Shown in pieces: positions 22,514 to 37,690 of a DNA stretch of 37,955 nucleotides. The position numbers and the translations under genes were made by a program. Where the stretch lies: contig QBMK01000036.1 in the NCBI GenBank assembly GCA_003249035.1, positions 1-37,955 on the forward strand. The letters run 5' to 3'. Every line of letters starts with the position of its first letter. Positions within the stretch are counted from its first letter, which is position 1. This DNA comes from Pseudanabaena sp. (GTDB lineage Bacteria > Cyanobacteriota > Cyanobacteriia > Pseudanabaenales > Pseudanabaenaceae). Under the pieces are notes generated by a model, which was given only the letters and a program-made list of their open reading frames with translations, was not told where the DNA came from and searched no databases.

Positions 22514-22587
22514 CGGGTTCGACGGGGCTCGAACCCGCAACTTCCGCCGTGACAGGGCGGTGCTCTAACCAATTGAACTACGAACCC
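22514..22587 (-). tRNA. tRNA-Asp (anticodon GUC)
   Basis: Read on the minus strand, the 74-base sequence folds as a complete cloverleaf: acceptor stem GGGTTCG/CGAACCC with discriminator G, D arm with AGTTCAATTGGTTAGAGC, anticodon stem CCGCC/GGCGG enclosing CTGTCAC (anticodon GTC), and T arm GCGGG TTCGAGC CCCGT. The G discriminator is an identity element of tRNA-Asp. CCA is not encoded: the bases following on the minus strand are TTC. It stands alone. Confidence 0.96.
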
Positions 22588-24774: not shown

Positions 24775-24877
24775 CATACCAATACACAAAATGGCGTAGC
24801 CATTTTGTGTTTTTAAAACCCTTACTGGGTTTGGTTTTCAATTCACAAAAGTGTGACGACACTTTTGTGAATTGGGA
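24775..24877 (+). mobile_element. Three-hairpin repeat element, copy A
   Basis: About 103 bases without coding capacity, made of three consecutive hairpins. The first has a 12-bp stem (24784-24795 with 24799-24810, loop gta), the second is aaaccc/gggttt (24816-24832), and the third has a 16-bp stem (24839-24854 with 24859-24874, loop gacg). The ends, ataccaa and ttggga, correspond to those of copies at 31389-31491 (inverted) and 36911-37013. Copies differ by point changes, several of which sit in the loops. It lies between two minus-strand genes, downstream of the FHA-TPR gene's end and upstream of ccsA. Confidence 0.85.
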
Positions 24878-24927
24878 TCACTTGTTCTAGGACAATTAGC
24901 GACAAATATATATATTTTTAAATGAGG

Positions 24928-31388: not shown

Positions 31389-31491
31389 ATACCAATTCAC
31401 AAAAGTGTGACAACACTTCTGTGAATTAAAAAACAAACCCTGTAAGGGTTTTGAAAACACAAAATGGCTACGCCATTTTGTGTTTTGGTAT
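31389..31491 (-). mobile_element. Three-hairpin repeat element, copy B (inverted)
   Basis: About 103 bases, inverted relative to copies A and C. The parts are aattcacaaaagtgt pairing with 31413-31427 (one mismatch), aaaccc/gggttt (31435-31451), and a 15-bp stem (31454-31468 with 31472-31486, loop tac). The outer ends ataccaa (31389) and ttggtat (31491) form a 7-bp terminal inverted repeat; this copy has the cleanest ends of the three. It lies between the divergent permease and serpin genes and adds an in-frame upstream ATG to the permease frame. The remaining spacer to 31670 has no gene. Confidence 0.87.
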
Positions 31492-35761: not shown

Positions 35762-36607
35762 TTACAATTCGCTCTGCGCTAAACCAGTAAATACTAACGT
35801 TGCAGGACCAGTCATCAAGATGCGATCGCTTTCAGCTAACCAATTAATTTTGAGATCGCCTCCAGGCAGATTGACTGTGCAGATGCGATCACAAAGATCA
35901 TTTAAAACGCCAGCTACAACCGTCGCGCAAGCACCTGTACCACAGGCTAGAGTTGCCCCTGCGCCACGTTCCCATACCCGCATTTTTACATAGCCACGAT
36001 TAACGACTTCCACAAATTCCGTATTTGTCCGTTTTGGGAATACAGGATGATGTTCAAAAAGAACGCCAATTTCTGCTAAAGGAATCGTATCAACATCATC
36101 AACAAAGGTCATACAGTGAGGGTTTCCCATGCTCACTGTCGTGACATTCCAAGTCTTGCCACCAACTTCAAGCGGAAGATTGACAACCTTGCAATCACTT
36201 TCGCCCAGGGTTGTCGGAATTTCAGCGGCAGTCAAAAATGGTTTGCCCATATCCACAGTCACATGTCCATCCGTATCCATTTGTGGCACGATCAAACCAG
36301 CCCCAGTTTGAATCTGATACTTGCTATCAGTAGTTGGAATATTCAAGTCCTGCATAAATTTAGCTAAGCAGCGAATTCCATTACCGCACATCTCTGGCTC
36401 AGAACCATCGGAGTTAAAAATCCGCATCTGAAATTCGCCATCATCCCCTGTTAGCAGAAAAATAACCCCATCAGCCCCAATACCAAAATTGCGATCGCAC
36501 CATTTGAAAGCCTGCTCAGGGGTGAGAATTGGTTCAGCACTGTGACGGTTATCGATCAGAATAAAATCGTTACCTAAGCCGTGATATTTACTAAATGCGA
36601 TCGACAT
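35762..36607 (-). CDS. dapF: Diaminopimelate epimerase
   Basis: 281 residues, normal length. It interconverts LL- and meso-diaminopimelate for lysine and peptidoglycan synthesis in the cytoplasm, without cofactor. Both catalytic cysteines are in place: Cys74 in 'EMCGNGIRC' and Cys222 in '[11 protein letters not shown]'. Other family blocks are '[13 protein letters not shown]' near the start, '[14 protein letters not shown]', '[14 protein letters not shown]' and 'RTNTEFVEV'. The start is the ATG followed by '[14 protein letters not shown]'. It stands alone on the minus strand, divergent from cynS across a palindrome-rich spacer. Confidence 0.97.
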
Positions 36608-36653
36608 GGATTAATTCAATATATTTTTGAATATTATATCGATCTCCATCACC

Positions 36654-36702
36654 AAAACAAAAAGGAGATGAAGCGCGAAGCACCTCATCTCCTTTTTGTT
36701 TT
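36654..36702. repeat. 18-bp-stem hairpin with GCGAAGC tip
   Basis: Arms 36654-36671 and 36685-36702 pair perfectly. The 13-base tip agcgcgaagcacc contains GCGAAGC (36675-36681) with flanking mismatches. It lies 47 bases upstream of the dapF start codon, in dapF's 5' region, so it cannot terminate dapF. Confidence 0.85.
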
Positions 36703-36707
36703 GACAC

Positions 36708-36766
36708 CCGAACCAATAAATTTGAAAAGTATTGCTAAGTCCCACTTTTCAAATTTATTGGTTCGG
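36708..36766. repeat. 23-bp-stem palindrome with 13-base loop
   Basis: Arms 36708-36730 and 36744-36766 (acttttcaaatttattggttcgg) pair perfectly. Starts five bases after the preceding hairpin. It shares the string cgaaccaat with the stem at 30045-30101. The loop, attgctaagtccc, has no GAA/TTC core. Confidence 0.85.
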
Positions 36767-36821
36767 ATTTGAGGGCAAAGCGCTTAAATATGGTTGGTAA
36801 CAGTTACAGCTGTTGATATTC

Positions 36822-36876
36822 CAAACCCTATAAGCGAATTGAGGCGCGAAGCGCCTCAATTCGCTTATAGGGTTTG
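36822..36876. repeat. 26-bp-stem palindrome with GAA triloop
   Basis: Arms 36822-36847 and 36851-36876 pair perfectly around gaa. The tip is GGCGCGAAGCGCC and contains GCGAAGC. With 26 uninterrupted pairs it is the longest perfect stem in the window. Confidence 0.9.
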
Positions 36877-36910
36877 TTTTTTAGAAATATATCCGTGCAA
36901 AGGACTATTT

Positions 36911-37013
36911 ATACCAAAACACAAAATGGCTACGCCATTTTGTGTTTTTAAAACCTTTACTGGGTTTGATTTTTAATTCACAAAAGTGTGACAACACTTT
37001 TGTGAATCGGCAT
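36911..37013 (+). mobile_element. Three-hairpin repeat element, copy C
   Basis: About 103 bases in the same orientation as copy A. The parts are a 15-bp stem (36916-36930 with 36934-36948, loop tac), a short aaacc/ggttt pair in the middle, and a 14-bp stem (36976-36989 with 36994-37007, loop gaca). The left end ataccaa is kept; the right end (gaatcggcat) has diverged from the ttggtat of copy B. A spurious reading frame starting with 'MFLKPLLGLIFNSQK' crosses it, echoing the one in copy B. Confidence 0.87.
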
Positions 37014-37016
37014 TAT

Positions 37017-37030
37017 GTAATCAAAGATAC
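37017..37030 (+). promoter_or_regulatory. Possible NtcA-binding site upstream of cynS
   Basis: gta-atcaaaga-tac matches the NtcA consensus GTA-N8-TAC exactly. NtcA-activated promoters usually have a TAN3T box about 22 bases further on; here the nearest candidate is tgaaat at 37051, which does not match exactly. The site is 214 bases before the cynS start codon, with a 23-bp hairpin in between. Cyanate use is a nitrogen-scavenging function, so NtcA control would make sense, but the match could be chance. Confidence 0.4.
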
Positions 37031-37145
37031 CGAATTGGGATGGGGATTGATGAAATCCTTGAACGAGATTTTCACTATCTGCGATCGCGGAAAAATTATC
37101 TACTGCAAGAAACTCACGTCATTGAAACTGTGAGAATGTAACAAG

Positions 37146-37196
37146 CATATTTTCAGAAGAAAGATTTATTTTGTAAATCTTTCTTCTGAAAATATG
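37146..37196 (+). repeat. 23-bp-stem palindrome in the cynS leader
   Basis: Arms 37146-37168 and 37174-37196 pair perfectly around ttttg. It ends 47 bases before the cynS start codon, so if transcription starts upstream it would form a very stable hairpin in the leader RNA. It could shield cynS from upstream transcription, act as an attenuator, or be one more inserted hairpin. Its AT-rich stem differs from the GCGAAGC group. Confidence 0.85.
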
Positions 37197-37243: not shown

Positions 37244-37690
37244 ATGACAGTCGAATTTCCTAGCTTTACCTATACGCTCCTAGCCGCAAAAAAAGCTAAA
37301 GGCATTAGCTTTTCAGATCTCGAAAAACTATTAGGACATGATGAAGTCTGGATTGCTTCCCTTTTTTACGGTCAAAATAGCACCAATGTTGAAGAAGCCA
37401 CAAAAATCGCCGATGCATTAGGGCTAGGTGAAGATATCATTTCCGCCTTAAGTGGATACCCTAGCAAAGGCTTAGGGCCAGTCGTACCTACTGATCCACT
37501 GATCTATCGCTTCTATGAAATTATGCAGGTCTACGGCTATCCAATGAAAGAAATCATCCATGAGAAGTTTGGTGATGGCATCATGAGCGCGATCGACTTC
37601 ACTCTCGACATTGAGAAAGTGGAAGATCCCAAAGGCGATCGCGTCAAAGTAACAATGAACGGTAAGTTCCTTCCCTACAAAAAATGGTAA
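37244..37690 (+). CDS. cynS: Cyanate hydratase (cyanase)
   Basis: 148 residues. It converts cyanate and bicarbonate to ammonia and CO2 in the cytoplasm, as a decamer. An N-terminal helical DNA-binding-like domain is followed by the catalytic domain. The three catalytic residues are at the family spacing: Arg89 and Glu92 in '[11 protein letters not shown]', and Ser115 in '[10 protein letters not shown]' (corresponding to Arg96, Glu99 and Ser122 of E. coli CynS). The C-terminus '[13 protein letters not shown]' is typical. No cynABD cyanate transporter lies beside it. No clear ribosome site precedes the ATG. Confidence 0.97.

Follow-up and report, generated by a model that had tools for sequence, protein, structure and literature searches.

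How a 636-bp spacer between two divergently oriented genes came to hold five palindromic units, and what keeps their arms perfect, is the question raised by the dapF-cynS locus of Pseudanabaena sp. in the 37,955-nucleotide stretch analysed here (the window). The spacer lies between dapF (diaminopimelate epimerase; 35762..36607, minus strand; PF01678, E 1.1e-68; protein 94% identical to that of G019) and cynS (cyanate lyase; 37244..37690, plus strand; PF02560, E 1.5e-38; up to 94% identical to the proteins of relatives). G000 is the source genome, the other G numbers are the genomes compared with it, and C and L numbers denote contigs and loci. A first-pass annotation, made from the letters of the window, had placed the two gene starts at 36607 and 37244, 636 bp apart, all of which was borne out; the five palindromic units that it listed, including a three-hairpin copy C, are likewise real and far above chance. 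Hairpins 2, 3 and 5 have the perfect stems of 23, 26 and 23 bp that it had read, while that of hairpin 1, also perfect, measures 19 bp and not 18. Its estimate that more than half of the spacer is palindromic was slightly high, hairpins with stems of at least 14 bp covering 281 of the 636 bp (44%), or about 50% if the whole 101-bp element C is counted. An Rfam search of the window returned no known RNA family in the spacer at the gathering threshold, the only match being a tRNA gene at 22514-22587 (minus strand).

The spacer was placed in the context of a 718-kb sample of its own genome (4555 kb in all), in which genes were called by a simple ORF rule. The sample held 233 hairpins with stems of at least 14 bp, against none in one order-3 Markov sequence of equal length; among hairpins so chosen the median stem was 17 bp and the longest 36 bp, and GC preceded the loop in 88 of the 111 with three-base loops. 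Folded as DNA, each of the five units was 7.2 to 15.5 sd better than its own shuffles. With six such hairpins, two of them contributed by element C, the spacer ranked first among 327 spacers of at least 100 bp, the next four having three each; a single 636-bp spacer would hold six or more with a Poisson probability of 0.0011, a value not corrected for picking the best of 327. Top rank in this series marks the spacer as the extreme of a genome-wide trait rather than a lone oddity.

The trait extends to the genus. Six genus genomes yielded 415 hairpins of this kind in about 1.15 Mb (0.36 per kb), roughly 29 times the density in 12 other cyanobacterial genomes (5 in 400 kb, 0.0125 per kb), although G+C is higher in 11 of those 12 and may explain part of the difference. 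In the same family outside the genus there was one hairpin in 180 kb, and G027, a member of that family with like G+C, had one in 40 kb. Elhai et al. (2008) reportedly described small dispersed repeats, tiny and mobile, in cyanobacterial genomes. Our literature search, to which most subscription journals were closed, found nothing on such hairpins in this genus.

Comparison with relatives suggests why this particular spacer stands out. In G016, about 6.7 kb separates dapF from cynS; this interval contains an ABC-transporter operon (NMT1-like substrate-binding protein, permease and ATPase) as well as an OsmC-like and an acyl-CoA-dehydrogenase-like gene. In G008 and G011 the corresponding distance is about 6.4 kb, and only in these three genomes does the operon lie between dapF and cynS on a single contig. 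The substrate-binding protein was found at 93-100% identity in six of the nine genomes searched (G016, G011, G005, G008, G022 and G013), in each with its gene upstream of cynS on the same contig, dapF being located elsewhere in G005, G022 and G013. G000, G018 and G019 have it only as paralogues of at most 36% identity. A stretch of the spacer at 37043..37141 (plus strand), ending at its own stop codon, reads as the decayed 3' end of the lost ATPase gene: in a single BLASTP comparison with the intact G016 ATPase it gave E 2e-5 with 16 of 48 residues identical and a 16-residue gap, and its DNA (spacer positions 443-496) was matched at 12 loci from 10 relatives. The spacer hence looks like a deletion scar, from which the transporter operon was lost and in which a decayed ATPase tail was left, a feature invisible to the first-pass annotation. 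We take the remnant to be cynD/nrtD-like from its position before cynS, and the lost operon is called cyanate/nitrate-like from the same place, with a putative substrate. In G024, a member of the genus with contamination given as 6%, cynS gave eight match rows on contigs C9, C13 and C17: four belong to full copies that match equally well, a fifth to a copy at 87%, and the other three to one decayed copy.

Within this apparent scar, the clearest trace of mobility is element C (36912..37012, plus strand), 101 bp long and composed of hairpins of 15 and 14 bp with a small one in the middle. It is framed by a TTA target-site duplication (36909..36911 and 37013..37015) and has TACCAA...TTGGTA ends, the right one degenerate here. 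We aligned 42 full copies, 37 of them, with at least 80 aligned bases each, from the 718-kb own sample; their consensus ends were TACCAA...TTGGTA, of the TACCAAAACACAAAATGG-type, with short terminal inverted repeats, and in clustering the element fell among 54 hairpins. The flanking 3-mers were identical in 31 of the 41 copies with both ends recognisable (mean 14.2 and maximum 24 in 2000 shuffles); they were mostly TNA, and only one was a reverse complement. Judged on these ends and flanks, element C is a MITE that has transposed, leaving a TNA target-site duplication of 3 bp. Two further full copies lie in the window in opposite orientations, at 24776-24878 and 31389-31491, with TCA/TCA and TAA/TAA duplications. 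Element C was matched in 25 of the 26 genus genomes and, in a class-wide draw of 145 genomes, in 11, all of this genus (one of 87 genera); as the searches scored only some of the candidates from the first look (40, up to 34 and, class-wide, up to 6 in each genome), the copy numbers are minimum values, and weak copies in other genera may have escaped detection.

MITEs are a known kind of element, and element C resembles them in being about 101 bp long and gene-free, with terminal inverted ends, a 3-bp TNA duplication and many copies. It differs in that the arms of its internal hairpins vary in matched fashion between copies, and in that no autonomous partner was found in the sample: about 1.15 Mb contained one far pair of ends, in G011, and no transposase was recognised by eye among the ORFs between them. 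A possible second MITE, with AAGTAGCT...AGCTAC-type ends around a central perfect hairpin, has near-identical copies in G000 at C22:164925, C22:179203 and C4:4334.

The other four hairpins differ in origin. Hairpin 1 (36653..36703; 13-nt loop), about 45 bp upstream of the dapF start codon, was recognisable in G016, G008 and G011 when the dapF upstream regions of 24 relatives were compared; it was broken in G022, replaced by a different hairpin in G005 and missing from G018 and G019. It is probably an older hairpin, in place in three relatives. A dapF promoter with its -35 box inside hairpin 1 was considered by eye and set aside; it is absent from the list of the promoter scan. Hairpin 2 (36708..36766), whose conserved tail TTTGAG-GCAAAGCGCT reaches about 36784, belongs to a dispersed family, with partial copies of 72-85% identity elsewhere in the own sample and others in relatives; its single-linkage cluster of 10 also contains hairpin 1, because the extracts overlap. 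By single linkage, hairpin 3 (36822..36876; GAA loop) joined a cluster of 31 members characterised by AAAACCC-type ends and GC-nnn-GC cores, and its longest other matches in the own sample were 75-83% identical over 41-60 bases. Hairpin 5 (37146..37196), between the stop codon of the remnant and cynS, was a singleton in clustering and gave only self-hits in the own sample. Upstream of cynS, in a comparison that covered plus-strand loci together with G008 and G011, hairpins of unrelated sequence were found in G016, G005, G022, G008 and G011, and none in G013.

Two relatives, G018 and G019, were found to have dapF and cynS paired in the same way; their spacers, of 327 and 232 bp, lack all five units. 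Insertion in the lineage of the source genome would fit this, while G018 and G019 may have lost sequence of their own, the pre-insertion state not being proven. If the two are sisters of the source genome, hairpin 1 would have to have been lost there. The G018 spacer carries a different insert with AGGACTTACGC...GCGTAAGTCCT ends (L011 1204-1293), within the dapF upstream region and absent in G019. What follows element C in the source genome at first seemed to resemble the G018/G019 spacer (GGCATT...TGTA), but GGCA is the degenerate end of the element and the likeness was discounted.

The perfection of the stems is a separate matter from their arrival, and it was approached through orthologous places, taken from the contigs around dapF and cynS and from whatever aligned to the own sample. 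At 132 such places the other genome had a hairpin near the middle in 104, some of them unrelated in sequence, and none in 28. From 88 hairpin alignments an identity cut of 0.6 left 73, and dropping reciprocal pairs left 49, in which 789 pairs were unchanged, 46 had changed on both sides and were still paired, 71 had changed on one side, 3 had changed on both sides without forming a Watson-Crick pair and 45 involved gaps; query hairpins had been chosen as perfect or near-perfect, and the species pairs are not independent of one another. With 71 changes confined to one side, arm correction is clearly incomplete. Among element C copies, 48 cells had changed on both sides and remained paired, compared with a shuffle mean of 8.0 (maximum 15 in 300 shuffles) and with 2 to 11 when the partners were slid. 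Selection for pairing could be the source of part of these paired changes.

Other changes are of a kind that points to copying from the opposite arm. Loops were reverse-complemented in 11 of 32 ortholog rows, identical in 10 and otherwise different in 11 (some loci being counted in both directions), and the first hairpin of element C had the loop TAC in 17 and GTA in 10 of the 34 copies scored. One stem changed length symmetrically, reading CCCAAGAT-A-GAGAATGCTG in G016 and CCCAAGAT-TTTTGTT-GAGAATGCTG in G019, and is perfect in both. Beside dapF, G008 has a 16-bp palindrome where the near-identical sequences of G016 and G011 are non-palindromic; this birth can be polarised, and the change in G008 is a reverse copy of the neighbouring arm. 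At one place in G016 a dispersed repeat forms a perfect 31-bp palindrome, the G019 ortholog of which is imperfect; the repeat occurs in 5 of the 26 genus genomes, and those copies with a listed opposite-strand match self-pair at 73-78%. Hairpins of some element C copies run past the end of the element into the flank, for instance at C22:394641 and C59:6957, where they reach 29 and 36 bp. Apart from these cases, G018 has a matched-arm palindrome at L070 6508 inside an open frame, with the protein reading FASLSMDLPDLQ compared with FDSLSMDLPDLQ in G008, a difference that may have arisen in either genome.

A scan that covered more than hairpins found 12 of 1944 substitution clusters (0.6%) equal to a reverse complement found within 60 bases, against no hits for reversed and none for complemented control strings; alignments overlap between species pairs, so that several hits are one locus twice, and about seven distinct loci were counted by eye. 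At 0.6% of clusters, template switching is a minority cause of clustered change overall. Taken together, the symmetric multi-base changes, loop flips and reverse-copied flanks favour template switching over selection for pairing alone. We infer from sequence, with strong comparative support in the genus, that stems are kept perfect, extended and sometimes created in this way. Hairpin 1 showed paired changes and a loop flip among G016, G008 and G011. Relative to these three, the copy in the window's own spacer had its outer arm changed symmetrically (one substitution and one A/T length step per side), and at two inner positions the left arm had changed with no matching change opposite, leaving uncorrected mismatches. 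No polarised multi-base event was seen in this spacer, neither in hairpin 1 nor in hairpins 2, 3 and 5, which have no ortholog for polarising.

The reading that we prefer, with a probability of about 0.7, is that mobile hairpins landed in a deletion scar and that template switching during replication keeps their arms perfect. The operon-free spacer would tolerate insertions, since no gene is hit. A nascent strand would then fold on a short hairpin seed, copy its own arm and return, thereby homogenising the arms, flipping loops and copying flanking DNA in reverse, and matched changes in the two arms would need no selection for structure. If the hairpins also act as terminators or insulators, that role would be a secondary one. 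The first-pass annotation had offered two explanations, a landing site for hairpins inserting next to each other and a structural locus. Of these the former agrees with the TTA duplication of element C, the dispersed families of hairpins 2 and 3 and the unit-free spacers of G018 and G019, and the latter fares poorly. That annotation had also regarded conservation of the five palindromes in place, with compensatory changes, as the mark of a fixed local function; the five are not so conserved, and compensatory changes were seen both in hairpin 1 and elsewhere. Template switching yields such changes without selection, which makes them a weak criterion for a fixed function here.

The strongest competitor, which we nevertheless consider unlikely, is that the hairpins are bidirectional intrinsic terminators or insulators, selected as RNA structures that halt antisense transcription and read-through between divergent promoters. 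Hairpins with stems of at least 16 bp were densest in convergent spacers (34 in 14.2 kb, compared with 80 in 65.7 kb of co-directional and 26 in 26.9 kb of divergent spacers). T-rich tails accompanied 120 of 233 hairpins, on both strands in 63 and on one strand in 57, counts that have no background control; in the remaining 113 a T-rich tail was absent. The spacer gave eight terminator-like matches (0.7 on average in shuffles), every one a nested register of hairpin 3 or hairpin 5, and hairpin 1 stands just upstream of dapF in four genomes. From the convergent-spacer density and the tails on about half of the hairpins, some may act as terminators. Against selection on RNA pairing, in element C, whose copies have a defined orientation, one-sided mismatches comprised 25 G-T and 26 A-C, which gives no strand-specific G-U preference. 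Nor does pair selection alone explain stems extended into flanks or a palindrome arisen from non-palindromic sequence.

The structural locus, by which the spacer would be a fixed site of cruciform extrusion, nucleoid-protein binding or replication, draws on the highest hairpin count among the 327 sampled spacers, but it is very improbable: hairpin 1 is the only one of the five units found in place in relatives, G018 and G019 have dapF next to cynS but lack all five, and relatives of hairpins 2 and 3 and of element C are scattered through the genome. Mobilisation as REP/REPIN-type palindromes by RAYT (Y1) transposases is more doubtful again. The hairpins are indeed short, dispersed and mostly intergenic palindromes, and the own genome has two weak Y1_Tnp matches; however, a GTAG/CGTC-type tag stood near the stem end in 5 of 233 hairpins compared with 29 of 233 at 100 nt, and G007, G017, G021 and G024 have matches to element C (the one element considered in this comparison) with no match to the Y1_Tnp model. 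Element C also has a 3-bp duplication, and Y1 transposition is not expected to leave one. Assembly or amplification chimeras, of which strand-displacement amplification is a described source (PMC9484634), can be practically dismissed, hairpins with diverged stems recurring at orthologous places in separately assembled genomes.

A raised rate of template switching in this genus would not be explained by the loss of two candidate nucleases. Such nucleases cut hairpins or suppress template switching, and their loss as the cause was rejected in a search that covered sbcD and xseA. Both were matched in all 26 genus members, sbcD in 57 of the 58 genomes overall (55 above the cut-off) and xseA in 48 of 58. 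The own genome has two sbcD-family matches above the cut-off (G000:C6:39664-40440 and G000:C44:162438-163199), as do most genus members, whereas other genera mostly have one.

The ingredients of the preferred reading are partly familiar. Quasipalindrome correction was reportedly treated by van Noort et al. in 2003. The hairpins found here are short, dispersed, extragenic palindromes with short loops, like REP/REPIN sequences (PMC3733652), but their stems (median 17, up to 36 bp, among hairpins chosen at 14 bp or more) exceed the 5-13 bp of REP, and they lack the GTAG/CGTC tag and any dependence on a Y1 transposase that we could see. Homogenisation of arms and inversion of loops by template switching are known from PMC8604942 and PMC8794818, which describe the same paired multi-base changes, identical arms and reversed loops; the difference is that the process here acts at mobile hairpin repeats throughout a bacterial genus and extends stems into flanks. 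What appears new is that these features occur together: the genus abounds in mobile hairpins with symmetrically rewritten stems, and within the sample they are densest in a deletion scar.

A broader proposal, tentative and in our judgement somewhat short of even odds, is that template switching is so frequent at the hairpins of this genus that it is a genome-shaping force, a population of perfect hairpins being kept up by mutation. If this were true, template switching would turn mobile repeats with imperfect arms, or even plain DNA containing a very short seed, into long perfect palindromes, extend these into the flanking host DNA and rewrite their stems, and the large, constantly renewed hairpin population of the genus would only appear to be conserved for function. 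Matched changes in the two arms are the usual proof of a functional RNA hairpin, and here they occur in mobile repeats that bear the marks of copying errors. Matched arm changes alone do not, therefore, prove function, and the genus offers a natural test case for how often such proof misleads. In this wild bacterial lineage one could also measure how fast template switching occurs and relate that rate to genes and growth.
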